Source: Cyanobacteriota bacterium (lineage in GTDB: Bacteria > Cyanobacteriota > Vampirovibrionia > Gastranaerophilales > UBA9971). Taken from it: a stretch of 47,561 nucleotides of DNA. The stretch covers positions 1 to 47,561 of the forward strand of contig JAKLDH010000006.1 in the NCBI GenBank assembly GCA_022703625.1. The letters are read 5' to 3'. Positions 4,403-29,743 of the stretch are shown here, piece after piece. How positions within the stretch are numbered: the first letter of the stretch is position 1; every line of letters begins with the position of its first letter. The notes beneath the pieces were generated by a model, which saw nothing but the letters and a program-made list of their open reading frames with translations, ran no database searches and was not told the DNA's origin. The position numbers and the translations under genes are program-made.

Positions 4403-4588
4403 TTAAGCCTCCTTCTGCTTAAAAAGACCGCACCATTTAACATCAATTCTTCCGAACCTTAAAATAACCACATCGTCTTTAAGGGTGCGAATTAAGGGGC
4501 AAAGTTTTTTGTTTTGACAATTGGAGCATTGGTCTCTATCGTCAATGATTACTTCCATTAATCGCCATCTATTTAACAGCATTTTCAT
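4403..4588 (-). CDS. Small Cys-containing phage protein between sheath and tube
   Basis: Sixty-one residues with a CSNCQNKKLCPLI cluster and a further Cys near the C-terminus (VKWCGLF), so a small zinc knuckle is plausible. I do not recognise the family. The ATG overlaps the TGA of the sheath gene (ATGA), a GAGGAG ribosome site lies about 11 nt upstream, and the stop is directly before the tube gene, so it is clearly translated as part of the tail operon. A role in sheath or tube assembly would be a guess from position only. Confidence 0.65.
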   Translation of the reverse strand: MKMLLNRWRLMEVIIDDRDQCSNCQNKKLCPLIRTLKDDVVILRFGRIDVKWCGLFKQKEA

Positions 4589-14261: not shown

Positions 14262-15087
14262 TTTGAAATACCTGATAACACTGCCTCCTGAGCAGGCTAT
14301 TAAATATCTTAAGTCCAAAGGATATAAATTCTCTTGGGATTGGCATGAGATTTGGCAGGATGCTCATACGAGGTCTTTTACAGTTGCAAAAGTTATGCGG
14401 AAAGATATTTTAAACGATATCAGAGAAATTGTTCAAAAGTCTCTGGATGAAGGTCTAACCTTGCAGCAGTTTAAAAAAGAGCTTGAGCCAAAGCTGAAAA
14501 ACAAAGGCTGGTGGGGCATTATTTCAGGAACTCCTGATAAAGTAAGAGATGAACTTTTAAAACGCAAGCTGATAAAAGATAAATCCTTGATTCCAGATGG
14601 AGAAGAAACAGTCACCGTCCAGTTGGGCTCTCCGTGGAGATTGAAAACAATTTACAGAACAAACATTCAGACTTCATATATGGCAGGCAGGTACAAAGAA
14701 CAAATTGATAACATCGAAAATCGTCCGTATTTTCAATATGTAGCTGTAATGGACAGAAGAACCAGACCGTCTCATGCAATGCTTAACGGCAGAATTTTCA
14801 GATATGACGATCCATTTTGGAATTCATTCTATCCTCCCAATGGCTGGGGCTGCAGATGCAGGGTCAGGGCTTTATCAGAAGACAACACAAAAGACAGAAA
14901 ACTTGATGTGGATTCTTCAGAAGGGCAATTATCTCAAGAAATGAGGGTGGTCTCGAAAAAAACAGGTGAAGAAAAGCCTGTTGCGGTTTATACGGATTCA
15001 TTAACAGGGCATAAAATTTCACCTGATGCGGGTTGGAGTTACAACCCAGGCAATTTAAAGAAATGGAGGCACAATAATGACAATTGA
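14251..15087 (+). CDS. F: F-like head morphogenesis protein (Mu gp30 / SPP1 gp7-like)
   Basis: 278 residues from the ATG at 14251, chosen because AGAGGAAAG at 14237-14245 is well spaced before it. The start lies inside the methyltransferase stop region. The N-terminal helical domain (TLPPEQAIKYLKSKGYKF, HTRSFTVAKVM) and the C-terminal phage_Mu_F domain (YRTNIQTSYMAGRYKE, VMDRRTRPSHAMLNGRIFRY, PPNGWGCRCRVRALSE) are diagnostic. These minor head proteins associate with the portal in the prohead. The gene overlaps the Dam-like gene by 11 bp. Confidence 0.92.
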   Translation: MQPDLKYLITLPPEQAIKYLKSKGYKFSWDWHEIWQDAHTRSFTVAKVMRKDILNDIREIVQKSLDEGLTLQQFKKELEPKLKNKGWWGIISGTPDKVRDELLKRKLIKDKSLIPDGEETVTVQLGSPWRLKTIYRTNIQTSYMAGRYKEQIDNIENRPYFQYVAVMDRRTRPSHAMLNGRIFRYDDPFWNSFYPPNGWGCRCRVRALSEDNTKDRKLDVDSSEGQLSQEMRVVSKKTGEEKPVAVYTDSLTGHKISPDAGWSYNPGNLKKWRHNNDN

Positions 15088-15907
15088 CACAAAATACCTT
15101 ATCAATTGGGTTGGAGGCAAACGACTCCTGAGAAAAACAATAGAGCCGTTAATTCCCAAAGATATGGTTTCGTATTTAGAGGTGTTCGGAGGAGGAGGCT
15201 ACATCCTTTTCTATAAAGACAAATGGGCGGATTTGGAGGTTTATAACGATCTTGATGGCAGGCTTGTAAACTTATTTAGAATTGTAAAATTTCATCCCAA
15301 TGCTTTAAAGGAAGAGCTGAATTATCTTCTTGGCAGCAGGGAAATGTTTGTTCAATTTATGAAAACAGAAGGCATAACAGATATTCAAAAAGCAGTCCGC
15401 TTCTTATATTTAATAACCCGTTCTTTTGGAGGCAGAGGAGAAACATTTGGATGTACCAAAAAATCATGCGGCGGAGCAAGCAAAAGTCAGGGAAATATAC
15501 TCTTTAGAATCGATGCCATTCACAAGAGACTTGATAAAGTCCTCATTGAAAACAAGGATTTTGAAGCATTCATTAAACAATACGATCATGAAGATGCATT
15601 TTTTTATTGTGATCCTCCATACAGTTGCGGAGCCGGTTATGCGGTAACTTCCACAAAAGCCTTTGACCACGAAAGGTTAAGAGCTACTTTAGGAGAAATT
15701 AAAGGTAGATTTTTGCTCTCATATGATGATGCTCCTAAAATTCGTGAACTTTACAACGGCTATGAAATGATTGCGGTTGAAAGGCTTAACGGAATCAACA
15801 ACAAACTGGGGGATGACCGCAAAAACAAAATGTTTAAAGAGATATTGATTGCAAATTATCCAATCATGGAGAAATTTTATGCCGGAACCGATAGAAATAA
15901 AGATTGA
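15077..15907 (+). CDS. Dam-like D12-class DNA N6-adenine methyltransferase
   Basis: A 276-residue D12-class enzyme: NWVGGKRLL near the N-terminus (AdoMet site), EVFGGGGYI, YNDLDGRLVNLFR, the Dam-type TRSFGGRG region and the catalytic CDPPYS. The ATG follows a GGAGG site that lies within the end of the F-like gene. The enzyme methylates adenine, and the GATC specificity of true Dam cannot be assumed. It is the second methyltransferase in this structural operon and overlaps both its upstream F-like and downstream G-like neighbours, so it is firmly embedded rather than a loose insertion. Confidence 0.9.
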   Translation: MTIDTKYLINWVGGKRLLRKTIEPLIPKDMVSYLEVFGGGGYILFYKDKWADLEVYNDLDGRLVNLFRIVKFHPNALKEELNYLLGSREMFVQFMKTEGITDIQKAVRFLYLITRSFGGRGETFGCTKKSCGGASKSQGNILFRIDAIHKRLDKVLIENKDFEAFIKQYDHEDAFFYCDPPYSCGAGYAVTSTKAFDHERLRATLGEIKGRFLLSYDDAPKIRELYNGYEMIAVERLNGINNKLGDDRKNKMFKEILIANYPIMEKFYAGTDRNKD

Positions 15908-16325
15908 CGATAAAGAAATCCAGCAGTATTTGCAAAAATTGATTTCCAAAACAGAAAATCTTCGCCCGATTATGAAAAATATTGCAGGGATTATGATGGA
16001 TTCTATCGAAAGCAACTTTGAGGCAGAAGGAAGACCCAAGTGGGAAGGTCTTAAACCCGCTACAATAAAGCAGCGGAGTAAAAAAGGTTATTATCCCGGA
16101 AAAATCCTTCAAATGCGTGGTGAGTTGGCAGCTTCAATTACCAATTCCTATGATTCGGATTCTGCGGTTGTCGGGACAAACAAGGTTTATGCTGCTATTC
16201 ACCAGTTCGGAGGGAAGGCTGGCAGGAATAAAACTGTTGAAATTCCGGCTAGACCGTATTTGAAGCTTGGGGATAATGAGAAAAATGAAATTCTGAAGAG
16301 AATAGAGGATTATTTAGCCGATTAA
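15879..16325 (+). CDS. G: Virion morphogenesis protein G (Mu gp31-like)
   Basis: 148 residues from the ATG at 15879, with GGAG seven bases upstream; an ATG ten codons earlier lacks a ribosome site. It shows the phage virion morphogenesis signature (MKNIAGIMMDSIESNFEAEG, WEGLKPATIKQR, VVGTNKVYAAIHQFGGKAG, IPARPYLKL). In Mu this protein works with the portal and tail in head-tail joining. It is the last gene of the rightward operon and ends 4 bp from the convergent patatin gene; the two stop codons sit in a perfect palindrome (16321-16334). Confidence 0.87.
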   Translation: MPEPIEIKIDDKEIQQYLQKLISKTENLRPIMKNIAGIMMDSIESNFEAEGRPKWEGLKPATIKQRSKKGYYPGKILQMRGELAASITNSYDSDSAVVGTNKVYAAIHQFGGKAGRNKTVEIPARPYLKLGDNEKNEILKRIEDYLAD

Positions 16326-16334
16326 TGCATTAAT
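16321..16334. repeat. 14-bp palindrome spanning two convergent stop codons
   Basis: ATTAATGCATTAAT is a perfect palindrome that supplies the stop codon of the G-like gene on the + strand (TAA, 16323-16325) and that of the patatin gene on the - strand (TAA, 16332-16330). The stem would be AT-rich with no T-tract, so it is not a convincing terminator. It marks the exact junction of the rightward head block and the leftward second tail module. Confidence 0.6.
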
Positions 16335-17328
16335 TGATATTCACGTTTGTCTGCAGTCCCTGGCACAGGGTATTAATTCTTGAATACCAGCCAATAGGCA
16401 TATTATCAACATAATCATGGTCAATATATCTTTGAGTCAGGCCTTTTAACCTGTTTAAACATTTTTTATCTGAATTATCCAGTTTATCCGCTCCTTTTTC
16501 ATCAGGAAGCATAAGCTGGAACCTGTAATAACAGTCCTGTGGCAGTAAAGTCCTCAGTTGATGTTCGACAGTTCTGCTGTTTCCATTGAAAAAAGTATCA
16601 ATTAATGGACCCGCCACCCATTGCAGGGGATTCCAGTTTTTGATTTCATCGTAATAAAGCGAAGATGTGGCTGTTCCAGTACCAAGAGAAACCACTATTA
16701 TCCTTTTACTTAAAGGCTCAATATTTTCCCTTCTTAAAATTTTAATAACCTCTATGAAGGCTGACATTGCGGGATTGTTAACAGCCACACCGCCGTCAAT
16801 AAATGTCCCCTTGCCTTCAATTTTATAGGGTTCAAAGTATGTTGGAGCTGCAGATGTTGCTCTTGCAACGTCTTTCAAGTAAACATCCTTATATCTCTCA
16901 TCGTAGTTAGCAAAAAATACTGCATTTCTGCTTTCCATCTCGTAAGATGGGATTAAAACAGGCTTGAGGGTATCTTTTAAGCAATAATTCTGCAAATTCT
17001 CCGCTAATACTCCTTCTATGCCTTTACGATTATATTTTTCACCCTTGGACAGGTAATTTAAGGGAGTAAAAGCGTTTTTCTTAAAAATCCTGTTAGCCCC
17101 ATCATCACTGTATATTTCCACAATCTTGCTGGCAGGAACAGGATCAGGCCTGTTAAGCAATAGGGAGATTATCCCGCCTGTTGATGTTCCTGCGAAAAAG
17201 TCAAATAATTCATATATCTTTGCCTGTTTTTGCTGTTCGATTCTGGCAAGCAATAATGCTGGAATAAACCCTCGTATTCCACCACCGTCAATTGATAGGA
17301 TTTTAATTGTGTCATGATGTTCGAACAT
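16330..17328 (-). CDS. Patatin-like phospholipase
   Basis: 332 residues from the ATG at 17328, which overlaps the amidase stop as TAATG and is preceded by AGAGGG; an upstream ATG at 17349 lacks this. The patatin fold is clear: oxyanion loop DGGGIRG (residues about 14-20), nucleophile elbow GTSTGG with Ser49, and the catalytic aspartate in IDGG followed by VAVNNPA. Such enzymes hydrolyse membrane phospholipids. Related enzymes act in CBASS (CapV), but this copy lies in a phage operon next to an amidase, so a role in lysis or membrane damage during infection is more likely. No signal peptide is seen. Confidence 0.85.
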   Translation of the reverse strand: MFEHHDTIKILSIDGGGIRGFIPALLLARIEQQKQAKIYELFDFFAGTSTGGIISLLLNRPDPVPASKIVEIYSDDGANRIFKKNAFTPLNYLSKGEKYNRKGIEGVLAENLQNYCLKDTLKPVLIPSYEMESRNAVFFANYDERYKDVYLKDVARATSAAPTYFEPYKIEGKGTFIDGGVAVNNPAMSAFIEVIKILRRENIEPLSKRIIVVSLGTGTATSSLYYDEIKNWNPLQWVAGPLIDTFFNGNSRTVEHQLRTLLPQDCYYRFQLMLPDEKGADKLDNSDKKCLNRLKGLTQRYIDHDYVDNMPIGWYSRINTLCQGLQTNVNIN

Positions 17329-17822
17329 TATACCCTCTGGTAATACCATTGTACCTTATTTCTTATAAAATCCCCGATTCCTCTGGGTTTAATTTCAGGA
17401 CAAGGGGGCAAATAACAGATATCAATCTTGCCGTGGCTTGTAGATTTAGGATTAGCATCTCCGAATTCCTTGTGTGTAAGCACAGTTTCTGGAGTTATAG
17501 CTATATTATACTTTTTACAAAGCTCCGCCATAAACTTAAAAGCTGCTTCGCATTGCTTTTTAGTCAAAGGGCAATTTCCAACCTGCTTTGAATTGCAGAA
17601 GCCAAGCATTCCGCAAAGAGCAACACCAATGCTTCCGGTATTGCCACCTCCAGTGTGAGCAGCATAGCCTCCACTTCTGCAATTCAGGTTGTCTTCAGGT
17701 TTATATTTACCAGCGTGTACTTTACCTTCCCCATCAATCATAAAGTGATAATGGCGTTTGTCAGTATCATTTGGCATATTTTGTCCGGCTGTCCAGTGAA
17801 GGATTATTCGCTTTAAAGACAT
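17328..17822 (-). CDS. N-acetylmuramoyl-L-alanine amidase (endolysin)
   Basis: A 164-residue Amidase_2 (PGRP-type) zinc amidase. ILHWTAGQ gives the first zinc His (His9), TGSIGVALCGM is the typical core strand, and VLTHKEFG contributes the second His; the third ligand region is near the C-terminal Asp/Cys segment. It has no signal peptide and is domain-sized, so it would need a holin or another route to the peptidoglycan. I did not find an obvious holin. It is translationally coupled to the patatin gene (TAATG), making a two-gene lysis-like cassette. Confidence 0.87.
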   Translation of the reverse strand: MSLKRIILHWTAGQNMPNDTDKRHYHFMIDGEGKVHAGKYKPEDNLNCRSGGYAAHTGGGNTGSIGVALCGMLGFCNSKQVGNCPLTKKQCEAAFKFMAELCKKYNIAITPETVLTHKEFGDANPKSTSHGKIDICYLPPCPEIKPRGIGDFIRNKVQWYYQRV

Positions 17823-17824
17823 GA

Positions 17825-18214
17825 CTAAAAGTTTTGTATTTTCTGTAATAACGCCTGATATGTAGGTTTTAAGGAATCTGGAACCATAGGCTCAATATCA
17901 ATCATTATTTGAACAGCTTCAGCTTTATTCCCTGCCTGTAGAGCGTCTTTAACATCTCCATAATTACTTTTAAAGAATGATTGAACTCCTTTTGGAAGAG
18001 CCTCCCAGTCTTTTTCAAGAGCATCCAACTTTTGTTTTTGCTGCTCTTTTTCTATATCTTCTATTACTTTACTTCCATCCCATTTGTAGGGTTTTCCATC
18101 ATCAGGAATTTCAACCAATTCATAAAAGTCTTTGCCTTCAAATTCAGTATCTATTTCACCATAGAACACTACATTAATTGATTTATTCAATATTCTGCAT
18201 TGCTTAAAAGACAT
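17825..18214 (-). CDS. Small tail-fibre-associated phage protein
   Basis: 129 residues. The N-terminus (IDTEFEGKDFYELVEIPDDG, KPYKWDGSKVIED) resembles small proteins encoded after phage tail fibres, and the second half is helical (EKEQQKQKLDALEKDWEALP...). The gene lies between the fibre and amidase genes with 2-bp gaps on both sides. A fibre assembly or capping role is plausible from position; I do not recognise a catalytic motif. Confidence 0.5.
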   Translation of the reverse strand: MSFKQCRILNKSINVVFYGEIDTEFEGKDFYELVEIPDDGKPYKWDGSKVIEDIEKEQQKQKLDALEKDWEALPKGVQSFFKSNYGDVKDALQAGNKAEAVQIMIDIEPMVPDSLKPTYQALLQKIQNF

Positions 18215-18216
18215 AA

Positions 18217-19113
18217 TTAAAAACTCCTTTTTGTTATAAACCTAATATTCCAATTACTATAAGTAGCCCTTGCTGCTGTAATGGTTGATGTATTAACAAC
18301 CGCAAAAGGGTATAATGTTCCTGCGCTTCTTGTAGAATGCGTCAATCCTGACAATTTGTTTAACATATATGCAATACCATCTGTATCAAAATTTCCACCA
18401 CCTTCTTTTCCTAATGGCAGCGCTTTATCTCCTATTGCGTAACCTAATTCTGCTGAAATACATATCAATTCACTTTTGCAAATACAATCAGAGCCTATAT
18501 TGTGATTAAAGGAAATATTCGTCAAATAATTATTTGCTAGAGCTTGTTCAATAACTGATTGACCATTAAAAGCATAGCTTTTTGGTGTTCCAATCGTTCC
18601 CGATGTTCTTGTAAACTCGCCTAGTTTCGTATATTGAGTTGCTATCCATGCGCCGCCAACTCTTTTATAAGGCGCCATAGGTTTTATACCTATATTTAAC
18701 CAATAATCTCCATCAACAGGAGAAGTTGGAGCTTTAATATCCTCTGTAATAGTCTTTGTAGTTATTAAAGGATTTTGTCCTTTTTCTTTTATTACTGTAT
18801 AAGTTCCATCTGAAGAAATGCTTGAAATAGTATAATCTGCGCTTATTGTTTCCAGAGAACCATCAGGATAAGCTATTACAAGGTTAGGATTGCTACTGCC
18901 CGCTTCAATTTTAACGCTTGAATTGTCGATTTTTATAATAAAATTAGCATATCCATTAGCATCAACCTTGCCTGACACAGCAGAATAAGGAACCTTGCCA
19001 TCTTGTGGTGAAACATTGTCATATTTCAGGTGCATAAGATTATCATTTACCTTATCCACATCGCAAGCTCCTCCGCCCTGCATTGCATTATCTGTCCAAG
19101 TGTAAGTTGTCAT
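18217..19113 (-). CDS. Tail fibre / distal tail protein
   Basis: 298 residues. The N-terminus (TYTWTDNAMQGGGACDVDKV) and the PTSPVDGDYWLNIG, KRVGGAWIATQYTKLGEF segment are typical of phage fibre or collar proteins that start with an anchoring domain and continue into beta-rich repeats. The C-terminal 100 residues are probably the receptor-facing tip. It lies immediately downstream of the J-like tip protein, as expected for a side or central fibre. The receptor cannot be inferred. Confidence 0.6.
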   Translation of the reverse strand: MTTYTWTDNAMQGGGACDVDKVNDNLMHLKYDNVSPQDGKVPYSAVSGKVDANGYANFIIKIDNSSVKIEAGSSNPNLVIAYPDGSLETISADYTISSISSDGTYTVIKEKGQNPLITTKTITEDIKAPTSPVDGDYWLNIGIKPMAPYKRVGGAWIATQYTKLGEFTRTSGTIGTPKSYAFNGQSVIEQALANNYLTNISFNHNIGSDCICKSELICISAELGYAIGDKALPLGKEGGGNFDTDGIAYMLNKLSGLTHSTRSAGTLYPFAVVNTSTITAARATYSNWNIRFITKRSF

Positions 19114-19133
19114 TTCATTCTCCTTTCGGTTTA

Positions 19134-21575
19134 TTAATATCCTTTTACTCTAATATCTACTTGCGCTGTAATAGCTATTCCTGAATTGTTATATGCCTTT
19201 ACAGTTGCCTGAGATGTAGTTTTGGATGTAACTACACAGTATCCGTTTGTTCCATCTGAAATATTTGCAACAACCGCAGGTATATTTGCGTATGCCGGAT
19301 CAAAATTAACCGTTACTCCATTAGCAGCTACTGATATTACCTGATCTTCAAAATAAAAGTCTCTATCAGGTACATCTATATTGACTATAAAGTTTGACAC
19401 GGCTGTATAGCTATTGTTTGGACTATTTAATGTTATTTTAAACTGGTAATATCTGAAGGTAGAACTACCCTGAGAGAAGATTTGCCAGTCAGTCCACGTT
19501 ATATTATCTTCGCTGTATTTCCATTCAACTATTATATTGCTGGCATCGTCTCTGCTGCTTAGATCATAGTTAACACTGATTATTGAAGTTAAATTAGTGC
19601 CTATATCATAAACTTTTGTTGTATATGAACCTGTGGATTCGACTTCAGATCCCCAATAACCATCAGGAGCATAGTCTTTGCCTGCATCGTCCCAAGTGCC
19701 TGAACTTGTCCAGGTATCAACAGAATCAAGCGCAACTCTGTTATAAACCCCATAGCAATTAACGAAAGTTCCTGCTGACAGGTCATCATCAAAAATATTT
19801 TCATTTAAAATAGTATTAACTTCCTGAATATCACTGACAACTATTGTCGAAAGCTTGGGGTTTGCAGAATAATTGCCGTATTTGTTCACAGCGCATATCC
19901 AGTATTTAAATGTTCCTTTCTGGATATTTAATACCGTATAACTTGAGCCTGTAAGGTCTTTAGCAATAAGCCTTGATTCGCTCCAAGAAGTCCCTTCCCT
20001 GATTTCATATGTGGCAATAGGGTTAGAAATAGGCTGCCATGTTAATATAATGGAATTAAGATTTTGAGCAGATGCCAAATTTTGAACATCATCAGGAGTA
20101 TCAAGAACATCGGTAAGGTTAACCGTATTAAATACAGGGGCAACACTGCCTAATGTGTCAGCATATAAGGCAGAATTAAATTCTCTGCAAATCAGCTGAA
20201 TTTGACCTTCTTGTGTTTCATTCATACTGACGACAACCATCTTTTTATTTTCATAGCCCATAAATGTGCTTGTAAGGTCTATAATATCGCCCGGTGTCCT
20301 GTCCAGAGCTTTCTTAGTTGTCATAAATGAAAAGAATTTGTCGCATGTATTAGCCTGATTAAGGTAAAACCACGCTAATCTTGATGCCTGCTTAAAACTT
20401 GTTATCCCAAGCGCTACTATTTCCTGTATAATAGGCGGATCATTCAGGAATGTATCAGCTTCCGCAACCGCATAGGCTCTTGCATATTGATTATCCGGGT
20501 CCATATACCTGATTTTAAATATGTCGCACCTTTGCTCTTTCGGAGTTGTCCAGAACACTTCGCTGTCAGCTATAATGTCGTCTTGCGCAAATGATTGGAC
20601 TGAGGTTGCATCCTGTTCTATTGTTATGGATGCTTTGCTGCCATTGTATTTAAGAAAACCACGGCAGCAGATTAACATTTCGTTTAACCAGTCCTGCCTT
20701 GTTTTTCTTGTATCAAGGATAATGTTAAGAGCGTATCTGGTATCTTTAACAACCATTGTTTGACTGCTGGCTGTGCTGGAGAAATTGGAAGCAACGGTTA
20801 AAGATGTATCACTGCTAACTTCCGTAACATCTTTGCTTTCTCCATTAATTGTAACCTGATCGCCGACTTTCACTTCGTTTTTAAATTTGGTTCCCGAACC
20901 CGTTACAGTTTTTGAACCGGAGGTTACGCTTACTGTTCCTGTTGCGTTAACCGGATTGATTTTTTCATCACAATAGCTGGCTGCATCAATAAAACTTTGG
21001 ATGTCAATATTGCTATAAGACAAACCACAGCCGTTGTAGCAGGTTAAGAAGTCCAGAATGCACCATATAGGATTATTGGAATACATAGTTGTATAGGCTG
21101 AAGTATTTGTATAAATCCTTACGGCTTTTCCTTGCAAGACCGCACTTACATCCATATAGTTACTAGCGACTTTAAGACCTGATTTTATTCTTAAAGCAAG
21201 ATAAGCCGTATATTTTAACCCGCCAACAAGTTCTGCCTTATCAGCTTGAGTATCACCCGGAACCCTATCATCAATTTGCTGTACACCGTCTCCCAAATAA
21301 GCTGTATAAGTACAACCATTAAGAGCAGAATCAGTTATTAAAATATCGTTTATTCTTATATCTGAAAATCCGGTTATTTTACCCTCAGCAAAGCATACTA
21401 ATGCGTTAAAGCTTGTTGTTCCTGAGCTTTGCCATATTTTATTGCCTGCAGCTCTGGCTTTTCCATAGACTATAGGTACAGACAAACAATTATTCGCCTG
21501 TGTCTCTAAAGAACCAAACCTATAGGCAGGACTTTCATAGTCAAAGCCTAAATTGTTTCTATCTGTAACACTCAT
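19134..21575 (-). CDS. Tail tip attachment protein (lambda J / GTA gp15-like)
   Basis: 813 residues with the host-specificity protein architecture: an N-terminal segment that includes SVPIVYGKARAAGNKIWQ and KITGFSDIRIND, a central hub domain (around residues 290-450, with WLNEMLICCRGFLKYNGSKA), fibronectin type III-like domains from about 490 (ILTWQPISNPIATYEIREGT), and a C-terminal beta region. An extra small beta domain (GTVSVTSGSKTVTGSGTKF, about residues 215-280) is inserted in the hub. It caps the non-contractile tail and carries the receptor contact or fibre. The gene follows the L-like gene, as J follows L (with K and I between) in lambda. Confidence 0.82.
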   Translation of the reverse strand: MSVTDRNNLGFDYESPAYRFGSLETQANNCLSVPIVYGKARAAGNKIWQSSGTTSFNALVCFAEGKITGFSDIRINDILITDSALNGCTYTAYLGDGVQQIDDRVPGDTQADKAELVGGLKYTAYLALRIKSGLKVASNYMDVSAVLQGKAVRIYTNTSAYTTMYSNNPIWCILDFLTCYNGCGLSYSNIDIQSFIDAASYCDEKINPVNATGTVSVTSGSKTVTGSGTKFKNEVKVGDQVTINGESKDVTEVSSDTSLTVASNFSSTASSQTMVVKDTRYALNIILDTRKTRQDWLNEMLICCRGFLKYNGSKASITIEQDATSVQSFAQDDIIADSEVFWTTPKEQRCDIFKIRYMDPDNQYARAYAVAEADTFLNDPPIIQEIVALGITSFKQASRLAWFYLNQANTCDKFFSFMTTKKALDRTPGDIIDLTSTFMGYENKKMVVVSMNETQEGQIQLICREFNSALYADTLGSVAPVFNTVNLTDVLDTPDDVQNLASAQNLNSIILTWQPISNPIATYEIREGTSWSESRLIAKDLTGSSYTVLNIQKGTFKYWICAVNKYGNYSANPKLSTIVVSDIQEVNTILNENIFDDDLSAGTFVNCYGVYNRVALDSVDTWTSSGTWDDAGKDYAPDGYWGSEVESTGSYTTKVYDIGTNLTSIISVNYDLSSRDDASNIIVEWKYSEDNITWTDWQIFSQGSSTFRYYQFKITLNSPNNSYTAVSNFIVNIDVPDRDFYFEDQVISVAANGVTVNFDPAYANIPAVVANISDGTNGYCVVTSKTTSQATVKAYNNSGIAITAQVDIRVKGY

Positions 21576-21617
21576 ATATTTCCCTCTGTATCTAATTAAT
21601 CTACTTTTATAATGATT

Positions 21618-22238
21618 TTATTTAGTCGGTGTAGGAAGTACCACTGATGGATAACCTCCAAAATTAGTTACATTACTTAAAGCCTTACACCGTGTTAGCG
21701 TTTTATCGCATTTTGTTTCGGCTCCAGAATAAGTACACCTGCTATCTTTAAATCTCCACTGGCAGTTCACATCAAAAATCATATTAGGACTCAGTGAAGA
21801 ATAGTTATTCAGTATTCTTTCAACAGTAAATACAAATGTTTTAGCGGTTAGCTGGATTTTATTAATCTTTCCATCGAATAATAGTATGGGATCACCGATA
21901 ATAGTAGTTGTATTTCCATCGAAGATTACTTCCTCGACTTTACAACCTCTATTGGTGAGAACATCTCCATTATTTGCAACCAATGCTGAAAATTCCTGGG
22001 CAATGTCAGAAACGCTTATGGACATACTGTCAGTGGTTCCGTCCAATGAGGTTTCAATGTCGGATGCTTGTACCATCCTTGCGTAATATGTATTTGAATT
22101 AATAACTATACTTGCTGAAGAATCATTTGCCAGAATCCTGAAGGGACCACTATCAAGACTAATCGTAATCAGGGTTCTGGTTTTAAGTGCTGATTTTGCA
22201 ATTTCTGTTTTTTGCGAAGCAGTTAAACCTTTACCCAT
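21618..22238 (-). CDS. Lambda L-like / DUF2163-type minor tail protein with four Cys
   Basis: 206 residues. The N-terminal two thirds are beta-rich (DUF2163/BR0599-like; MVQASDIETSLDGTTDSMSI). The C-terminus has CQWRFKDSRCTYSGAETKC followed by DKTLTRC, giving Cys159, 168, 177 and 184. This is the Cys pattern that binds a 4Fe-4S cluster in lambda gpL and its relatives. gpL completes the tail tip between M and J. It overlaps the M-like gene by one base and lies 42 bp before the J-like gene. Confidence 0.83.
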   Translation of the reverse strand: MGKGLTASQKTEIAKSALKTRTLITISLDSGPFRILANDSSASIVINSNTYYARMVQASDIETSLDGTTDSMSISVSDIAQEFSALVANNGDVLTNRGCKVEEVIFDGNTTTIIGDPILLFDGKINKIQLTAKTFVFTVERILNNYSSLSPNMIFDVNCQWRFKDSRCTYSGAETKCDKTLTRCKALSNVTNFGGYPSVVLPTPTK

Positions 22239-22591
22239 TACTCAACCACCTCCACAAATTGAATGCTAAAAGTGGAATAACCGGATTCCAGAATATTAAA
22301 ATTAAGCACATCAGAAGCGAACCTGACAAGATAAGTATTGCCATCCCCGCCTTTTGAAGAATCCCACGTCCAATTAAAGGCTGTTTTTCGACCTTTTTGA
22401 CTCTTGAAAAAAGTTGCTACAGCTGCCGTATTTGTAGGGTTTTTCTCAAAATCAAGAACCCAGCTCATTCTTGGGTTAGTCCAGGTATCACGTCTTTGTT
22501 CTTTACCGGTAAATGTTTCATCCACAATGGTTTTGAACTGGATTGAGTTAACGTGAGCCTGTTTGTAAGGATAATTGAATGTGTCTACCAT
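22238..22591 (-). CDS. Minor tail protein M-like / DUF2460-like
   Basis: 117 residues. A GKEQRRDTWTNPRMSWVLDF segment followed by VATFFKSQKGRKTAFNWTW is typical of small distal-tail proteins of the M/DUF2460 group found between the tape measure and L-like genes. The position (H-like, M-like, L-like, J-like) matches lambda and gene transfer agent tail clusters. It probably joins the last tube ring to the tip. Confidence 0.75.
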   Translation of the reverse strand: MVDTFNYPYKQAHVNSIQFKTIVDETFTGKEQRRDTWTNPRMSWVLDFEKNPTNTAAVATFFKSQKGRKTAFNWTWDSSKGGDGNTYLVRFASDVLNFNILESGYSTFSIQFVEVVE

Positions 22592-22633
22592 ATTTGTTTA
22601 CCTCGTTTTTATCTAAATATCACTTTTATATTG

Positions 22634-24136
22634 TTACCACGGGAATAAGAATGAAATCGCAAGACCAATTGCCCAGGAAACAGCTGCTCCAACAGCTGCT
22701 ATTGCCCCTCCTATAAATGGAAGCGCAGTTAATGCTCCCCACATTGCTGCCAATTGTGCCCCTGCCCAAGCTACAGCACTTCCGATTGCTTGACCAACAA
22801 CAGTATTAGCAACAGATTGCCATGCGGCATTTGCAAAAGCTTTTACTGCAGTAGATGCGGCTTTCCATTGGCTCTTTGCAAAAGTTTTAGCTAAGCCCTT
22901 AGCCATGTTGGCATAATTTCGATATGCGTCTGCTTTGCCCATTATTTTTGACAATTTTTTGCCAAACATTAATTCTCTGGAGCGGTCACGTAAAAATCCT
23001 TTAGCGTAGCTATAGCCTAATTTAACGCCACCGTATAAAGTATTTTTTATAGTCGAAGCATTAGGTGTACTGAATGGTTTTTCACGATTAAATGGCTGGG
23101 ATGCAACTCCCGGCAAAGAGGTTTCGCTCGGTGTGTTTATTTTATCTGACATGGGAATGCCATTTTTATTTAAAACTCTTTGAGTAACATTTGGAGTTAC
23201 CTGTTCTGTTACTGGATCATAGAAAGTGTCGCCCTGAAATATTTCAGCTGTAACCTTTTCTTCCCTTCTGGTAATAAGGGAATCCAGTCCTTCTCCTTTT
23301 TCAAATTGATCTTTTAATCTTTCAAAAAGTTGGTCATCTGTTGTCGAAGAATTTTTGAACTCATTCTTTAAATACTCTGAATGCTGACTTTCAGTCATCA
23401 TTGATGGGTCATAATGACCTTTTTGTAATGATGAGTCATTTTTTAATTGTTCATAGCGTTGGTCATCAGTTATAGGAGCGGCACCACCAGTTGGAGAGCC
23501 ACCACCTCCACCGCTTCCGCTTTTTGATTGTTTTTTCAGACCTTCAATTTGTTTGTCTAATTCCTCTAATTGCTCAAAAGCCTTGTCTATTTCAGCACCA
23601 TGACCCGGACCTGCTTTGACTAAGTTATCTATTTTTTCCAATAATTGTTTATATTGATTTTCTAATCTAATCAATGGAAGGTCGTCTATATATTGCCGTA
23701 ATTCCCTTATTTCTGCTTTTCTTGCCTCAAAATAATTCAAAATTGCTTGTTTATCAATGTTTTTAATATATTCATCCGCTTTATAATTCCAAACTTCACC
23801 TAAAATCCCCCATCCTCCTGGAGCTAATCTTGGAGTATCTGTAATTATTTTTTGTCTCAAATCTTCTTTATGTGAACAAATATCAATTAAAGTAGTAATT
23901 TTAAAGAACTTGCCTAATGCTTTTCCACTTTGCATTAAAGCCTTTGGAACCTCTTTAGCAATTCTGGCTTGTAGTATAGAGAGTTCTCCTTTTCTTACTC
24001 CCTTATTTATAGCCTTTAAAAGTTCTTCTCCAGATTTTTCCGTTCCGCTTGAAATAATTTCTTCAGATGCGGATTTTTTTATAATTTCATGTAACTCATT
24101 AGTTTTTAATTCTTTAGTTTTATCTTCACCGGGCAT
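22634..24136 (-). CDS. H-like (tape measure-type) tail protein with a shared anchor module
   Basis: 500 residues in four parts: a helical N-terminal domain (1-200, coiled coil at 150-205); a Gly-rich linker (about 203-222, ending TGGAAP); a module (about 249-359) with SSTTDDQLFERLK, TFYDPVTEQVTPNVTQRVLN and REKPFSTPN; and an Ala/Gly/Trp-rich hydrophobic C-terminus (about 385-500) like that of tape measure proteins. It is next to the M-like gene, so the tape measure assignment fits, though 500 residues is short. The linker and module recur in the M15 protein at 25320-26477, whose N-terminus is different. The start overlaps the upstream membrane protein by 11 bp. Confidence 0.6.
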   Translation of the reverse strand: MPGEDKTKELKTNELHEIIKKSASEEIISSGTEKSGEELLKAINKGVRKGELSILQARIAKEVPKALMQSGKALGKFFKITTLIDICSHKEDLRQKIITDTPRLAPGGWGILGEVWNYKADEYIKNIDKQAILNYFEARKAEIRELRQYIDDLPLIRLENQYKQLLEKIDNLVKAGPGHGAEIDKAFEQLEELDKQIEGLKKQSKSGSGGGGGSPTGGAAPITDDQRYEQLKNDSSLQKGHYDPSMMTESQHSEYLKNEFKNSSTTDDQLFERLKDQFEKGEGLDSLITRREEKVTAEIFQGDTFYDPVTEQVTPNVTQRVLNKNGIPMSDKINTPSETSLPGVASQPFNREKPFSTPNASTIKNTLYGGVKLGYSYAKGFLRDRSRELMFGKKLSKIMGKADAYRNYANMAKGLAKTFAKSQWKAASTAVKAFANAAWQSVANTVVGQAIGSAVAWAGAQLAAMWGALTALPFIGGAIAAVGAAVSWAIGLAISFLFPW

Positions 24137-24557
24137 TTTTTAATTTCTCCCTAATACTTGAATTAATGTAATATTGAACAATTAAAATGGGTAAAAAGTT
24201 TAAAATAGATATATATATATAAGGATTATTAGGCTCATAATCATATCCGAAAGATAAAATCACGCAGAAAATAAAACTAAATATAGTAGAAATTGAAATT
24301 ATTTTATATTTACCCCAGTTTGTGCTATAAGCAAAAAGTTCTTTAAATAATAAAATAGGCATAATAAAATTAAGTATTGGCAATCCCATTATCAATGTTC
24401 TAATTAATGGATTTACTTTTTTAATATTATTTTTTCTAATAAATTCCCATTTTTTATAAAACCATATAACTGTATATAAAGATAAAGTTAATATTGAATA
24501 TAATGTCAATTTAGTCAGAGACATTTCTATTTGTTCATTATTTGTCATAGTTATCAC
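24126..24557 (-). CDS. Four-helix membrane protein (DUF4234-like)
   Basis: A 143-residue very AT-rich gene. The protein has about four membrane segments, starting with LTLYSILTLSLYTVIWFYKK followed by WEFIRKNN, a pattern reminiscent of DUF4234-type proteins, and ends in a basic tail. It is not a normal phage tail component. It lies between the M15 protein/DUF4013-like pair and the H-like gene, overlapping the latter by 11 bp. Candidate roles are immunity to the neighbouring M15 enzyme, a holin-like function, or simple host-derived cargo; the sequence does not decide. Confidence 0.6.
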   Translation of the reverse strand: MITMTNNEQIEMSLTKLTLYSILTLSLYTVIWFYKKWEFIRKNNIKKVNPLIRTLIMGLPILNFIMPILLFKELFAYSTNWGKYKIISISTIFSFIFCVILSFGYDYEPNNPYIYISILNFLPILIVQYYINSSIREKLKNAR

Positions 24558-24617
24558 CTCTTAATTTAATATATTTAGGAATCAATCCCACAATTGGGAC
24601 TTTTTCTAAAAATTCCA

Positions 24618-25307
24618 TTAAAGGCATTTGACTTCCTCCCTCTCTGGTTTAAATAATTGCGAATAAAATAAAACAACCAAAAAAGAACTGATGTATAAAA
24701 TATAATTAAAGATATAAAAATATAAAGAATCTACTCCTGAGCCTATAAATGAAGCTTTAATTGCATCAATAGCAATAAAAACTATCATAAAAAACAATGT
24801 GGAAAGTATAGAAATAATAAGAAATTTTTTAAAATTATTTTTTATTAATTGTAGATACAAATTGCAATTCAATGCTTCCAGTATTTTAAAATTTTTAGCG
24901 TACATAATGATTATTAAAGGAAAAATTAAAGAAAAAATAATTTTATCTAAATTTTCAAATGGAACTGAAATCACATAAGTAATCAATGTTATTATTAATT
25001 GATAAATTATAAGAATTACTATTAAAGAAAATGAATGTTTTAAATATGTAAGTATATTTAACTTCCAACTAGGTAAATTGATTTTTTCTTCACAATTTTT
25101 TATTGAAATATGGACTGTTTCAACAATATAACCAAATAGTAATGCAATTGTTGTAAAAAACAGGATGCCCATTATCACAACATTCATAAAGGTTGGCAAA
25201 AAAAATGAATAAGTGTTTAAAATACTAATTATTGAAAATATTAATAAATTAAACAAGGAATCTTTATTAAATAATATAAAAAATGGTTTTTTGATGTTTA
25301 GAATCAT
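24618..25307 (-). CDS. Multi-spanning membrane protein (DUF4013-like)
   Basis: 229 residues with about six hydrophobic segments. The LLFGYIVETVHISIKNCEEK stretch followed by INLPSW is close to the GY...LPxW motif of DUF4013 membrane proteins. The gene is strikingly AT-rich and codon-poor compared with the tail genes around it, which suggests a separate origin. It follows the M15 protein gene by 12 bp and lies just upstream of a second membrane protein. Function unknown; see the cargo-block finding for the immunity idea. Confidence 0.6.
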   Translation of the reverse strand: MILNIKKPFFILFNKDSLFNLLIFSIISILNTYSFFLPTFMNVVIMGILFFTTIALLFGYIVETVHISIKNCEEKINLPSWKLNILTYLKHSFSLIVILIIYQLIITLITYVISVPFENLDKIIFSLIFPLIIIMYAKNFKILEALNCNLYLQLIKNNFKKFLIISILSTLFFMIVFIAIDAIKASFIGSGVDSLYFYIFNYILYISSFLVVLFYSQLFKPEREEVKCL

Positions 25308-25319
25308 TTATTTTTTCCT

Positions 25320-26477
25320 TTATGCTGCTTTACTTAATTCATTAGGCGTACTGAATGGTTTTTCTCGAGCAAACGGCTTTGATGTAGCTGGGGGATGTGA
25401 AGTGCCAGAAAGGTCGAGGACTCCCTCCAGACCTACTGGTTTACCCTCTTGATTCATCACTCTTGCTGTTACATTATAATTTACTTGCTCTGTCGCTGGA
25501 TGGTAAAAATCTTTTACTTCTGCGCTACCCTTGAGAAGGGTGCCAGAAGGTTTGTGGAACATACCACCCCATGCGTCTTTAGCCTTCCCTGCCAGATTTG
25601 ACAGTCCTTTGCCCAGAGTTTCAGCAGCTTTACCTATTTGTTCTCTATTTTGAATTGAAACCTTTAATATTTCCTCGAGCTGGTCGTCACGAGTGCTAGA
25701 GCCCTTAAATTGTTCTTTTACATACTGTTCATGCTGGCTTTCGTTTGAAGGATTATTATGTGTAGGGGGAGGGTTGTGTTTTACACGATCTTCAGCCAGC
25801 GAAGGTGTTTCGGCATTTGGGTGAGTAGATTGTGCTGGTGCAGCACCGCCAGTAACTGAACTACCTCCACCTCCGCTACCTCTTTGATTATTTTGGTTTT
25901 GGTTAGCTCTATTAGTGCGATTAGCATAACCATTTACAGCTTGATCTCTGGCACCTTGGTTATATGTATTTGTTACTGATCTATTTTTGTCATCAAATCG
26001 TCTATTTGCACCCGTATCTATATGGGTCCAAGTAGGAGCGTATTCTAAGCCACCATTATGAATAGAATTTAGGTGATCTTGTACTTGCCTCGGAGTCATG
26101 CCTTGTACTGTAATATCAACAGCCGCTCCTCTTGTATGCCAAGAATTTGTAGCGCCACCTATGCTTGTATTGTAAGCTGACGAACGAAATCCTGAAGTTA
26201 TAGTTATAGATCTATCGCCTAAAGAGTGTCTATATACCTCAAGATTATTTGCCAACCTACCATAACTTTGAACAACATCCCTTGGTGGTAATCCTTTTCT
26301 AGGATCAAATAATTCACTCCAAGCAAAATGTTCTGATGCCATTGCTCCATTTGGTGGCAACTTCCCAAATTCCTTTATATATGAGTTAACTGCATCTGTA
26401 GACCATATATCTCCTGGTTGTGCATTCTCAAAATTATAGCTGCTAGTTTGTATTTGGGCATTTAATTTCTGTGACAT
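25320..26477 (-). CDS. M15-type peptidoglycan peptidase with a tail anchor module
   Basis: 385 residues. The N-terminal 165 residues are an M15 DD-carboxypeptidase-like domain: ITSGFRSSAYNTSIGG, SWHTRGAAVD (zinc His114 and Asp121) and WTHID (His152). An Asn-rich stretch and a GSGGGGSSVTGGAAP linker follow. The last 135 residues (from ESQHEQYVKEQFKGSSTRDD) match the module of the H-like protein and end just after REKPFSTPN, where that protein continues into its hydrophobic region. The enzyme would cut peptide cross-links, as tail-tip hydrolases do during DNA entry. No signal peptide is seen, so delivery by the tail or by lysis is expected. Confidence 0.8.
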   Translation of the reverse strand: MSQKLNAQIQTSSYNFENAQPGDIWSTDAVNSYIKEFGKLPPNGAMASEHFAWSELFDPRKGLPPRDVVQSYGRLANNLEVYRHSLGDRSITITSGFRSSAYNTSIGGATNSWHTRGAAVDITVQGMTPRQVQDHLNSIHNGGLEYAPTWTHIDTGANRRFDDKNRSVTNTYNQGARDQAVNGYANRTNRANQNQNNQRGSGGGGSSVTGGAAPAQSTHPNAETPSLAEDRVKHNPPPTHNNPSNESQHEQYVKEQFKGSSTRDDQLEEILKVSIQNREQIGKAAETLGKGLSNLAGKAKDAWGGMFHKPSGTLLKGSAEVKDFYHPATEQVNYNVTARVMNQEGKPVGLEGVLDLSGTSHPPATSKPFAREKPFSTPNELSKAA

Positions 26478-26481
26478 TATT

Positions 26482-27924
26482 CTACTCTCCTACCCTAAGG
26501 CTGTTATATTTTAAGGTAATAGATATTTTATCCTCATTTATATTAAATTCTTTAGGGTATGGTATTAATGGTGCTGCTTTGTTAACAGCATCTATAGCTG
26601 CGTTATCTGAATTATCATCACCTGAAGAATTTTCAATCTCTATATTTGTTGGATATCCATCTTTGTCAATATTAAAAAGTATTGTAATACTGTAATTATG
26701 GTCACTTTTGGGAGGATTCCAATTTTTATTAATATTATTTGTTACGTTATTTATATACTCATCTAAAGCATTTATGTTTGTTTTTTCAAAATTTAAACTT
26801 CTTTTCTGTTTTTTACTGATATTAGACCAAATAAATTCACCGTTTTTATTTATATATCCATTTTTATTTTCACTAGATACTTTAGCTAAGTCATTTTTAA
26901 AAGATTCTGCTTCATCAAATTGAGGTTGTATTATTAATTCTCCTTTTTTATTTATGTAACCCCAGGTATTAATCGACATTGCAACTGCTGCTACACCATT
27001 ACTGAAATTTTTAACATCGTAAAATTCGGGTTTTATAACCATTTCGCCCGATATATCAATAAATCCCCACCGATCTTTAATTAAAACGGCTGCCAATCCT
27101 TCTGAAAAATCTTTAGCATCATCATATTGAGGTTTTATAACTTCTTTTCCTTGTTTATTAAGGTAACCGTATTTGCCATTTACCTCAACTGCTGCAAGAT
27201 TATCAGAAAAATCATGAACATATTCATATTTAGGCTTAACAATTGTAGTTCCTTTTTTATCTATAAAACCCCACTTATATATATTTTTTTCAAGATATAA
27301 TTTTCTATCATTAACTGCTAAAAACTCTTGAGAAAAGTTCCTGCATATTAATTCTTCTCCGCAACTATAGTATCCTAGCTTGCTCAAATCCAGAAGTATT
27401 TCCCCATTTTTATTAACAAAAACAATTTGTTCGCTTGCTTGTTCTCCTTCTTTGAAGAGGAATCCTGAAGCTAAACCATCGTCAAAGCTATTAATGAAAT
27501 CTATTTGTTTATTTTCTATAACTTTTAAACCTTGATTATTAATAAAATATTTTGAAACACAATCAGGGCTAACAAGCGCAAGTCCTTCTAAAAAATTTTG
27601 GGCTGAACATAATTCTGGTTGTATAACAAAATTACCTTTTGTATTGATATATCCAAACTTATTATTTATTTTTACAGCAGCTAATCCTTCAGAAAATGGA
27701 AACACTTCCTCATATTGAGGTTTTACAATTTCTTTTCCTTTATTATCAATGTAACCATATTTCCCTTCAGTTTCTATAGGAAAAAGATAATCTGCTTGTT
27801 TTTGAACTATTGATACTATCTTTGTTGAAGTTTCATCTTTTACAGCTAGTGTAAAATATCCTATACAAGAAATAATTCCTATAATCAAGGAAAACGTTAT
27901 TATTTTGTTTAATTGAATTTTCAT
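26482..27924 (-). CDS. Membrane-anchored WG-repeat protein with TonB C-terminal-like domain
   Basis: 480 residues. An N-terminal hydrophobic helix (residues 8-28, no clear cleavage site) is followed by about eight WG/KWG repeats (forms such as YGYIDNKGKEIVKPQY, WGFIDKKGTTIVKPKY, WGYINKKGELIIQPQF), and the last 95 residues resemble the TonB C-terminal fold (ITILFNIDKDGYPTNIEIEN). WG repeats form beta-propeller or rod-like binding surfaces. The protein should face the periplasm. It is an unexpected gene between a tail tube and a tail-tip peptidase, 8 bp downstream of the tube gene; it is probably a host-interaction cargo (moron). Binding partner unknown. Confidence 0.8.
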   Translation of the reverse strand: MKIQLNKIITFSLIIGIISCIGYFTLAVKDETSTKIVSIVQKQADYLFPIETEGKYGYIDNKGKEIVKPQYEEVFPFSEGLAAVKINNKFGYINTKGNFVIQPELCSAQNFLEGLALVSPDCVSKYFINNQGLKVIENKQIDFINSFDDGLASGFLFKEGEQASEQIVFVNKNGEILLDLSKLGYYSCGEELICRNFSQEFLAVNDRKLYLEKNIYKWGFIDKKGTTIVKPKYEYVHDFSDNLAAVEVNGKYGYLNKQGKEVIKPQYDDAKDFSEGLAAVLIKDRWGFIDISGEMVIKPEFYDVKNFSNGVAAVAMSINTWGYINKKGELIIQPQFDEAESFKNDLAKVSSENKNGYINKNGEFIWSNISKKQKRSLNFEKTNINALDEYINNVTNNINKNWNPPKSDHNYSITILFNIDKDGYPTNIEIENSSGDDNSDNAAIDAVNKAAPLIPYPKEFNINEDKISITLKYNSLRVGE

Positions 27925-27932
27925 AGTTTACC

Positions 27933-28484
27933 TTAACTTATTGCTGCTGCTGTCTCGTTAACCACGTAATCTCTGATCTTGCTGTTATTTACTGTTGGAA
28001 TAGCTATTCCGCTGGCTGATATGATTGCGTAGTTCTGAGCTTTATATTCAACATGCGTTGACAAGGCTTTACATTTATGCAGCACAAGATGAAAATCTCC
28101 TATGGTGTCAGGGGAATAGTTAATTTTACCTTCGAGTTTAAAGTATTTTGGTGCACTTGTATCTGATAATGTGTAAGTATGCTTTTGGTTTGGAGTAGAA
28201 CCAGTGCTGGTAATTGTTCCGCCTTCTAAAATATTCAAAGCGTCAAGACTCACCTTTACGTTAGAAAAAGACCATGAAACAGACTGAAGTTTTGAATAAT
28301 ATCCATCGATTTCTTCGTCCTGCATCAATGGTCTTTGAATATAATTTGGAGCTAAATTAATATTCTGCATGCTTGGAACATCAACCGCACTCCCATATGT
28401 TAAACTCCCTGCGGTATCAGCAGTAACTTCAAATATCTTTACATCATCAAGACCTAATAATCCCGCTTCTTTAGTTAATGTCAT
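27933..28484 (-). CDS. Tail tube protein of the non-contractile tail
   Basis: 183 residues, rich in beta-strand and Thr/Ser. An N-terminal GLDDVKIFEVTAD segment, a loop DEEIDGYYSKLQSVSWSFSN and the VSLDALNILEGGTI segment match siphovirus-type tail tube proteins (lambda V/gene transfer agent type). It lies 12 bp downstream of the putative tail terminator, the usual order. It is unrelated to the FII-type tube at 3881-4402. Normally a chaperone pair would follow; here the WG-repeat gene follows instead. Confidence 0.65.
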   Translation of the reverse strand: MTLTKEAGLLGLDDVKIFEVTADTAGSLTYGSAVDVPSMQNINLAPNYIQRPLMQDEEIDGYYSKLQSVSWSFSNVKVSLDALNILEGGTITSTGSTPNQKHTYTLSDTSAPKYFKLEGKINYSPDTIGDFHLVLHKCKALSTHVEYKAQNYAIISASGIAIPTVNNSKIRDYVVNETAAAIS

Positions 28485-28496
28485 ATATTTATCTCC

Positions 28497-28913
28497 TTAA
28501 TTATCTCTTGAGGTATTAACTACAAAATTGAATACGAAAATAATTCTGTTGCTTCCATCTGTACTGGAATAATGAGGAGGTTGTGCAGCCATTATATACA
28601 TTTTTCTGCTATTGCAGACTTTATAACCGCTTTCCTGTCCAACTAATTCATTGTAAATATCCCAGATTTTTCCCTGTCCATTGGTATAACTTGTGTTTCT
28701 TACCGATATTGAAACGGTTTGCTGAATGTCAGAGATACCCGGAGGGATAAGAGCTTGGTTAGTAAGGGTATTTAATGAACTTGTTAATATACTATCCGCA
28801 GTTGTTATAACAATTACGTTATCGGGAGTAGTTGGCATAGCTCCTAAAGCAATATTTGCGTCTATGTCAATGCTTGCCGTGATTAGTTGTTGTTTAATGT
28901 CATTCTCTATCAT
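28497..28913 (-). CDS. Putative tail terminator / minor capsid-type protein
   Basis: A 138-residue protein opening MIENDIKQQLITASIDIDAN, with VNIDxAL-like strands and a core ISVRNTSYTNGQGKIWDIYN, followed by a C-terminal FVFNFVVNTSRDN. Pattern and position resemble the small tail terminators (Minor_capsid_3 type) that precede tail tube genes in siphoviruses. It is the first gene of the leftward second-tail operon, so the operon promoter should lie in 28914-29428. Confidence 0.55.
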   Translation of the reverse strand: MIENDIKQQLITASIDIDANIALGAMPTTPDNVIVITTADSILTSSLNTLTNQALIPPGISDIQQTVSISVRNTSYTNGQGKIWDIYNELVGQESGYKVCNSRKMYIMAAQPPHYSSTDGSNRIIFVFNFVVNTSRDN

Positions 28914-29428: not shown

Positions 29429-29743
29429 ATGAAAGATATAAAAGTGCTTTTAGGAAAACGTATAAGAGAGATAAGAAAATCTCAAAATCTCACTCAGGAA
29501 GCTTTAGCTGAGTTAATTGGTGTTGAGTCGCCAAGCATCAGCAATATTGAAAATGGGAAATATTATCCAACAAATGAAAATCTGCAAAAAATTGCCGAGG
29601 TTTTAAAAGTTAAGCCTTATGAATTATACATGTTTGAACATTTAAGACCTGCAGATGAGCTGAAAGATGAAATGTTTCAGGCTTTAGACAACAATGAAAA
29701 ACTTACAAGGCTTATGTATAAATTTTTTGTTACTATTAAATAA
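29429..29743 (+). CDS. XRE-family transcriptional regulator
   Basis: 104 residues. An N-terminal HTH_3 domain (LGKRIREIRKSQNLTQEALA, ELIGVESPSISNIENGKYYP, LQKIAEVLKVKPYELYMFE) is followed by a short helical tail for dimerisation. A TATTAT box ends five bases before the ATG and there is no clear ribosome site, so the mRNA could be leaderless. Located between the phage late region and chromosomal-looking genes, it may be a prophage regulator or a chromosomal one. Its probable operator is at 29377-29393. Confidence 0.85.
   Translation: MKDIKVLLGKRIREIRKSQNLTQEALAELIGVESPSISNIENGKYYPTNENLQKIAEVLKVKPYELYMFEHLRPADELKDEMFQALDNNEKLTRLMYKFFVTIK

Follow-up and report, generated by a model that had tools for sequence, protein, structure and literature searches.

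Effector cargo is established for contractile tails, that is, for the type VI secretion system (T6SS) and the extracellular contractile injection systems (eCIS), and for the non-contractile tailocins described so far killing is thought to be by perforation; according to reviews they do not require an immunity gene. One tailocin review ascribes self-resistance to a lipopolysaccharide mismatch (PMC12090994), and an eCIS review reports that no immunity proteins have been identified for antibacterial eCIS toxins (PMC10598620). Tape-measure-related effectors are known from actinobacterial contractile injection systems as the Tme proteins (PMC11126660, 2024) and the Sle1-type proteins (PMC13277306, 2026), and one Sle1-type pair behaves as an effector with its immunity protein (PMC13277306). 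These are the closest published relatives of the locus analyzed here, a siphophage-type tail gene cluster at positions 16330-28913 of a 47,561-nucleotide stretch of Gastranaerophilales DNA (contig JAKLDH010000006.1; the whole stretch is called the window). The common traits are candidate effectors on tape-measure-like proteins, headless tails and exchangeable functional domains. However, Tme and Sle1 belong to contractile particles, whereas the window cluster is non-contractile and has no sheath. Their functional domain is C-terminal, with a coiled coil or a DUF4157 domain at the N-terminus or in a partner protein, whereas in the window proteins the variable domain is N-terminal; no DUF4157 match was found in the scanned window proteins. 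The window-type system also differs in its tape-measure-type C-terminal anchor, in the existence of several unrelated anchors and in its stacked orphan copies.

Other systems are similar in part. The MuF toxins of temperate phages (PMC5576092) have polymorphic toxin domains on phage structural proteins and neighboring immunity genes, to which the candidate effector domains and membrane genes of the window would correspond, but they join a head-associated MuF N-terminus to a C-terminal toxin, whereas the window system is tail-associated, headless and of reversed polarity. With the Rhs and contact-dependent inhibition (CDI) systems (PMC3482391) it has in common a toxin domain (DUF6973, an Rhs tip), cassette exchange, displaced orphans and adjacent immunity-like genes; in contrast to them, its constant part is C-terminal and tail-derived and its orphans lie upstream, not downstream. 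The F-type tailocins (F-pyocin, monocin and rhizoviticin, PMC10811719) are also headless non-contractile siphophage-like tail clusters, but for those described neither effector cargo nor a dedicated immunity gene is known, unlike the window cluster with its candidates for both. The accessible part of the polymorphic-toxin survey PMC3482391 makes no mention of tape measures, and in the open-licence literature we found no account of effectors in non-contractile tails that vary at the N-terminus and are anchored by a tape-measure part. From the gene comparisons given below, we consider it probable that 16330-28913 is a domesticated, headless, F-type-tailocin-like tail carrying an N-terminally polymorphic effector-immunity system, which would be docked by tape-measure-type C-termini.

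A repeated module behind unrelated N-termini

All genes of the cluster lie on the reverse strand. The H-like protein (H; 500 aa, 22634..24136) consists of an N-terminal domain X (residues ~1-130, 23747..24136), which is the candidate effector domain and matches L049:2473-3216 with a blastp E-value of 1e-13, a Gly linker, an anchor module (residues 241-359, 23060..23416, motifs SST.DDQL ... REKPFSTPN) and a hydrophobic Ala-rich C-terminus (residues 360-500, 22637..23059). The latter ends in FLFPW, is conserved in genomes G002 and G004 and in locus L070, and occupies the tape-measure position adjoining DUF2460. The M15 protein (M15p; 385 aa, 25320..26477) has an M15 peptidase domain (Peptidase_M15_3 in Pfam, E 9e-16), a Gly linker and a copy of the module (25341..25760), but not the hydrophobic C-terminus, and is a truncated, orphan form. 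Its zinc-ligand pattern HxxxxxxD ... H is present as SWHTRGAAVD (residues 112-121) and WTHID (residues 150-154), and it matches PDB entry 1lbu with an E-value of 2.5e-7.

The original prediction, made from this DNA alone, was that the two proteins share a repeat behind unrelated N-termini, and this is what we find. Residues 241-359 of H are homologous to residues 240-379 of M15p (41% identity, BLASTP E 3e-22), and with the linker included the alignment score is 266, compared with a maximum of 67 in 300 shuffles. Only the module of about 120-140 residues and the Gly linker are common to both, and the N-termini do not match each other. At the DNA level the similarity is patchy and limited to two stretches: 45 bp at the end of the module, which encode PF.REKPFSTPN (84%, E 2e-9), and 60 bp at the linker (72%). 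The M15 copy was also predicted to end where the other continues, and indeed the M15p stop codon lies 20 nt beyond the end of the DNA similarity, while H runs on into its hydrophobic C-terminus. The M15p module is nearer to the anchor of the corresponding gene on contig C60 of G002 (G002:C60; 53% amino acid identity, 76.5% DNA identity over 243 bp) than to that of the resident H.

H had no match among phage records and nothing significant in a PDB search, domain X had none among plasmid records, and viral scans with H or M15p as single proteins yielded nothing of use. Pfam finds no MuF domain in either protein. Weak matches of H in L012 and L013 were discarded as coiled-coil or hydrophobic look-alikes in host genes.

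Exchange of N-termini on three anchors

Anchor 1, the anchor type of the window proteins, was found in four genomes, in L070 and in the partial relative of the latter, L071. The window and G002:C60 align at 84-90% DNA identity over 16320-22758, apart from a gap at the fibre gene, and their core tail genes are close (DUF2460 97%, DUF2163 91%, J 96%). From about 22758 to 27987 the alignment is lost except for short module pieces, which shows replacement of the complete cassette and of most of the gene for H. Anchor 1 carries at least five N-terminal types, namely M15 and X in the window, a different one in G002:C60, X in G002:C38 and G004:C250, a Gly-rich one in L070 and a DUF6973-like one in G013:C94. 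Varied N-termini at five further loci thus agree with the predicted cassette, variable at its N-terminus and conserved in its C-terminal anchor, and they exclude that the module is a single invariant part of a tape measure, the finding that the original prediction had named as fatal to it. Two of these loci are orphans away from tails: G013:C94 and G002:C38, where an anchored domain-X protein and two membrane genes lie between host genes, outside any tail cluster.

The same architecture recurs on two other anchors, and the three are mutually unrelated. Anchors 2 and 3 are tape-measure C-termini beside DUF2460. Anchor 2 (motif SGGVVPG...AHGSEM; L065-L068, L077) occurs twice in L068, once on the tape measure and once on another protein, whose N-terminus is new. 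Anchor 3 (motif HTGG...GGETVRTE...NR.GFR; L062, L063, L074, L079, L082 twice, L122) is duplicated with new N-termini in L082. In G003 it terminates a protein that lies directly before DUF2460 and whose N-terminus looks like that of an ordinary tape measure, and for this reason we regard it as a genuine tape-measure C-terminus.

Three N-terminal families, X, DUF6973 and Y, occur on more than one anchor. Domain X is found on anchor 1 in H, G002:C38 and G004, and on another anchor in G011:C119. DUF6973 is found on anchor 1 in G013 (Pfam E 7e-4, below the cut-off) and on anchor 3 in L082 (E 4e-11), and family Y on anchor 2 in L068 and on anchor 3 in L062. In a Klebsiella plasmid record, an Rhs core protein has DUF6973 as its C-terminal tip and is followed by ydcD; the same domain is therefore C-terminal in Rhs and N-terminal on the tail anchors.

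Some neighboring observations concern the same region of related clusters. The end of L049 and the start of L069 share an overlap of exactly 99 bp, the k-mer of one assembly, and these contigs are binned into different families, which is likely a binning error in G011 or G003. L072, L073 and L082 have no tape-measure-type gene between the tube and DUF2460 genes, and in L072 and L082 a cassette lies just upstream of J instead. In an intact siphophage (L066:7040-8547, G002:C86), a cargo-like insert between DUF2460 and DUF2163 encodes proteins of 139 aa and 235 aa, the latter with a DKPHPNCKC motif, and a 131-aa membrane protein. A 146-aa open reading frame (ORF) of L082 was rejected as an M15 enzyme, its resemblance being one of motif only, to which Pfam gives no support. 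Reading frames are interrupted in the N-terminus of the G004 protein and in the M15-motif ORF of L082.

Stacked orphans and the point of exchange

Three loci have the same pattern, in which a gene truncated soon after a repeated piece of the module is followed by one or more membrane genes and then by the intact gene. The repeated DNA is 84% identical over 45 bp in the window, 92% over 110 bp in G011 and 88% over 165 bp in L122, and the displaced copies are M15p, G011a and an 86-aa fragment, respectively. Exactly this pattern would result if one homologous crossover at the module introduced a membrane gene, a new N-terminus and a module. That the M15p module is nearer to the G002:C60 anchor than to H would suit an M15p that is what remains of an earlier resident gene.

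In these respects the original interpretation stands: there is a cassette with an anchor, orphan modules are retained and, as described below, membrane genes usually accompany module proteins. One other element, the swapping of domains by recombination at the Gly linker, finds no support. The linker motif TGGAAP was found only in the window pair and the linker is not conserved elsewhere, whereas both the shared DNA and the truncations lie at the end of the module. The exchange point is therefore better placed there.

Membrane genes beside the anchored proteins

The two genes between H and M15p were predicted to be very AT-rich membrane genes, and their GC contents are 0.21 and 0.22, compared with 0.36-0.41 in the tail genes, with about 6 and 3 predicted transmembrane (TM) segments. 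One encodes a DUF4013-like protein with ~6 TM segments (24618..25307; Pfam E 5e-5, below the cut-off), which is a candidate immunity protein. The other encodes a small protein of 143 aa (24126..24557), DUF4234-like but also below the Pfam cut-off, which is a candidate immunity protein for domain X. Its ATG is probably at 24548, and an 11-nt overlap with the start of H suggests coupled translation.

Small multi-TM proteins adjoin most of the anchored variable proteins, and these two families recur among them. A DUF4234-like gene lies directly upstream of domain X at three anchor-1 loci, in the window (G000), in G002 (as a tandem pair) and in G004, and also precedes an unrelated N-terminus in L122. 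The DUF4013-like family recurs beside cassettes in the window, L070, L072 and L049. For M15 another partner may be considered. WG-repeat proteins adjoin M15-type genes in two distant tail clusters, the window (26482..27924, a WG-repeat/TonB-C protein by Pfam, with an N-terminal membrane anchor) and L082 (L082:5308-6459, beside an M15-motif ORF and a tape-measure anchor). Both WG proteins look exported, and that of the window is a candidate periplasmic partner or immunity protein for M15.

In the gut Gastranaerophilales phages L102, L104, L106, L110 and L115 (and in L064), a gene for a secreted or single-TM protein adjoins the tape measure on the opposite strand. These genes possibly serve superinfection exclusion.

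A headless tail

The window contains two phage-derived elements, a Mu-like myophage and the tail cluster. The Mu-like phage is complete, with sheath, tube, capsid E, portal, terminase, MuF and its own tape measure, and the sheath gene at 4585-5811 belongs to it and not to the cluster. Neither the lack of head genes in the cluster nor this unrelated neighbor had been noticed in the original prediction. A single-phage origin of all tail genes was rejected, since the myophage is equipped with a sheath, tube and tape measure of its own and since in G002 and G004 the cluster is found by itself. Pfam and PHROG scans found no sheath, capsid, portal or terminase among the genes of 16330-28913. In G002:C60 the same cluster adjoins the same radical-SAM/MerR/HTH genes, and in G004 it is divided between contigs C250 and C91; the contigs G002:C60 and G004:C91 carry no head genes. 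The headless cluster thus occurs in two other Melainabacteria/Gastranaerophilales genera, and its tail genes are intact across all three. Full siphophages related to it, with capsid and connector genes, are present in the same genomes. Because the cluster is headless in the window, G002 and G004 while its relatives keep their capsid and connector genes, it looks like a domesticated F-type tailocin.

Proposed mechanism and alternatives

The observations to be explained are a shared module with changing N-termini, three anchors, N-terminal families crossing them, the lack of head genes, membrane genes that recur alongside and truncated orphans. As in polymorphic toxins, one constant part is combined with many unrelated effector domains (on anchor 1 and likewise on anchors 2 and 3), domains are common to different anchors and to a known toxin (the DUF6973 Rhs tip), and there are displaced orphan cassettes. 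As in F-type tailocins, a siphophage-like tail without head or sheath is encoded (window, G002:C60, G004:C91). We infer that the particle is assembled and loaded, that it kills, that its producer is immune and that recombination brings in new cassettes. The C-terminal anchor, derived from or acting as a tape-measure C-terminus, would dock the protein in the tail lumen or tip adjoining the DUF2460/DUF2163 hub, with the variable effector domain at its N-terminus. Placed in the lumen near the tip, the anchored protein would leave first. When a competitor is bound, ejection of the tape-measure-like part would take the N-terminal domain (M15 peptidoglycan peptidase, X, DUF6973 or others) out with it, and a headless tail, having no DNA to carry, could deliver that domain. 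The small membrane proteins would protect the producer, a role that for M15 possibly falls to the exported WG-repeat protein. Homologous recombination where the anchor module ends would introduce new cassettes and leave the older effector truncated just beyond the module, as in M15p.

Several points weigh against this reading. All relatives are draft metagenome assemblies, and in G011 the protein and its presumed anchor are joined through a 99-bp overlap of contigs from two bins. Anchor 1 of H has no Pfam or PHROG tape-measure match, only its position and hydrophobic C-terminus agreeing with such a role; AlphaFold models of H and domain X have a pLDDT of 38-47, too low for use; and no known toxin is matched by domain X or by several of the other N-termini. 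The Pfam matches of the immunity families are weak and below the cut-off, and the anchored variable protein of L062 has no membrane gene nearby. M15 enzymes are common in phages, where such peptidases serve as tail-associated lysins, ordinary tape measures without cargo are also flanked by membrane or secreted genes (L087 and the gut phages), and the membrane genes of the window are compatible with superinfection exclusion. These last facts belong equally to the main rival, ordinary tail biology, which we regard as unlikely. H, the sole tape-measure candidate in the cluster and one with a hydrophobic C-terminus, would then be a tape-measure or pilot protein whose fast-evolving N-terminus is fitted to inner-membrane partners of the host, M15p would be a tail lysin, and the membrane genes would be morons excluding superinfection by cognate tape measures, with HK97 gp15 as a parallel. 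Sie/Ltp systems would be another parallel on this reading, and published exclusion systems target DNA injection or tape measures (PMC10883804, PMC3952083). However, a length ruler is not expected to have a truncated second copy bearing an enzyme, DUF6973/Rhs-tip domains, families on unrelated anchors, or orphan loci away from tails such as G002:C38 and G013:C94. Furthermore, the clusters of G002 and G004 lack M15, which is hence accessory, and protecting DNA injection would bring no benefit to a headless particle.

A third explanation, which appears very improbable to us, is that M15p and H are an old tandem duplication in a decaying prophage, the remainder being degeneration and no functional cassette existing. 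Truncated or frameshifted copies (the G004 N-terminus, the 86-aa orphan of L122) and the missing heads are what decay would leave. Nevertheless, M15p is no recent duplicate in cis, as its module is nearer to the G002:C60 anchor than to H, the tail genes are intact across three genera with flanks shared with G002, and the same architecture is present on unrelated anchors.

For a wider claim arising from the effector-immunity reading, our expectation is evenly balanced. This is that headless non-contractile tails of Melainabacteria/Gastranaerophilales form an undescribed class of particles, which load N-terminally variable antibacterial effectors via duplicated tape-measure C-termini, with membrane immunity genes and upstream stacking of orphans, and that intact siphophages of the group use the same architecture. 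Should the effector-immunity reading hold, it would add a non-contractile class that bears cargo and a cassette mechanism that mirrors that of Rhs/CDI at the N-terminus, and would explain the short, hypervariable tape-measure genes in these phages. It would also be the first such weapon reported, in the literature searched, for bacteria known almost only from metagenomes, and would supply a search rule for effector-immunity pairs: a tape-measure C-terminus with an unknown N-terminus and an adjacent membrane gene, upstream of DUF2460.

Remaining genes of the cluster and its surroundings

The cluster runs in the order terminator, tube, cargo region, DUF2460, DUF2163, J, fibre, amidase and patatin. 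It is headed by a divergent HTH regulator on the forward strand (29429..29743), conserved in G002 and 39% identical to that of L082. The tail terminator (28497..28913; PF12691, E 4e-9) and the major tail tube protein (27933..28484; phrog_4971, E 1e-26) precede the cargo region, after which come the distal tail protein DUF2460 (22238..22591; Pfam), the baseplate hub protein DUF2163/gp84-N (21618..22238; Pfam) and the J-like central tip protein (19134..21575; phrog_31, E 4e-40). A fibre-like protein, a 129-aa protein, an amidase_2 and a patatin-like phospholipase end it (16330..19113). The tail genes of the Rhodobacter gene transfer agent have the order tape measure, DUF2460, DUF2163, P60 peptidase and tip protein. 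Related siphophage clusters match this order; unlike the gene transfer agent, the window cluster has neither head genes nor a P60 gene between DUF2163 and J.

A scan for promoters and terminators gave nothing above chance level. The patatin-like phospholipase gene (16330-17349) ends the cluster in the window, G002 and G004 alike, and its product may be a further effector of the particle. Within the head module of the Mu-like prophage, two DNA methyltransferase genes (13299-14261 and 15077-15907) flank the MuF gene.

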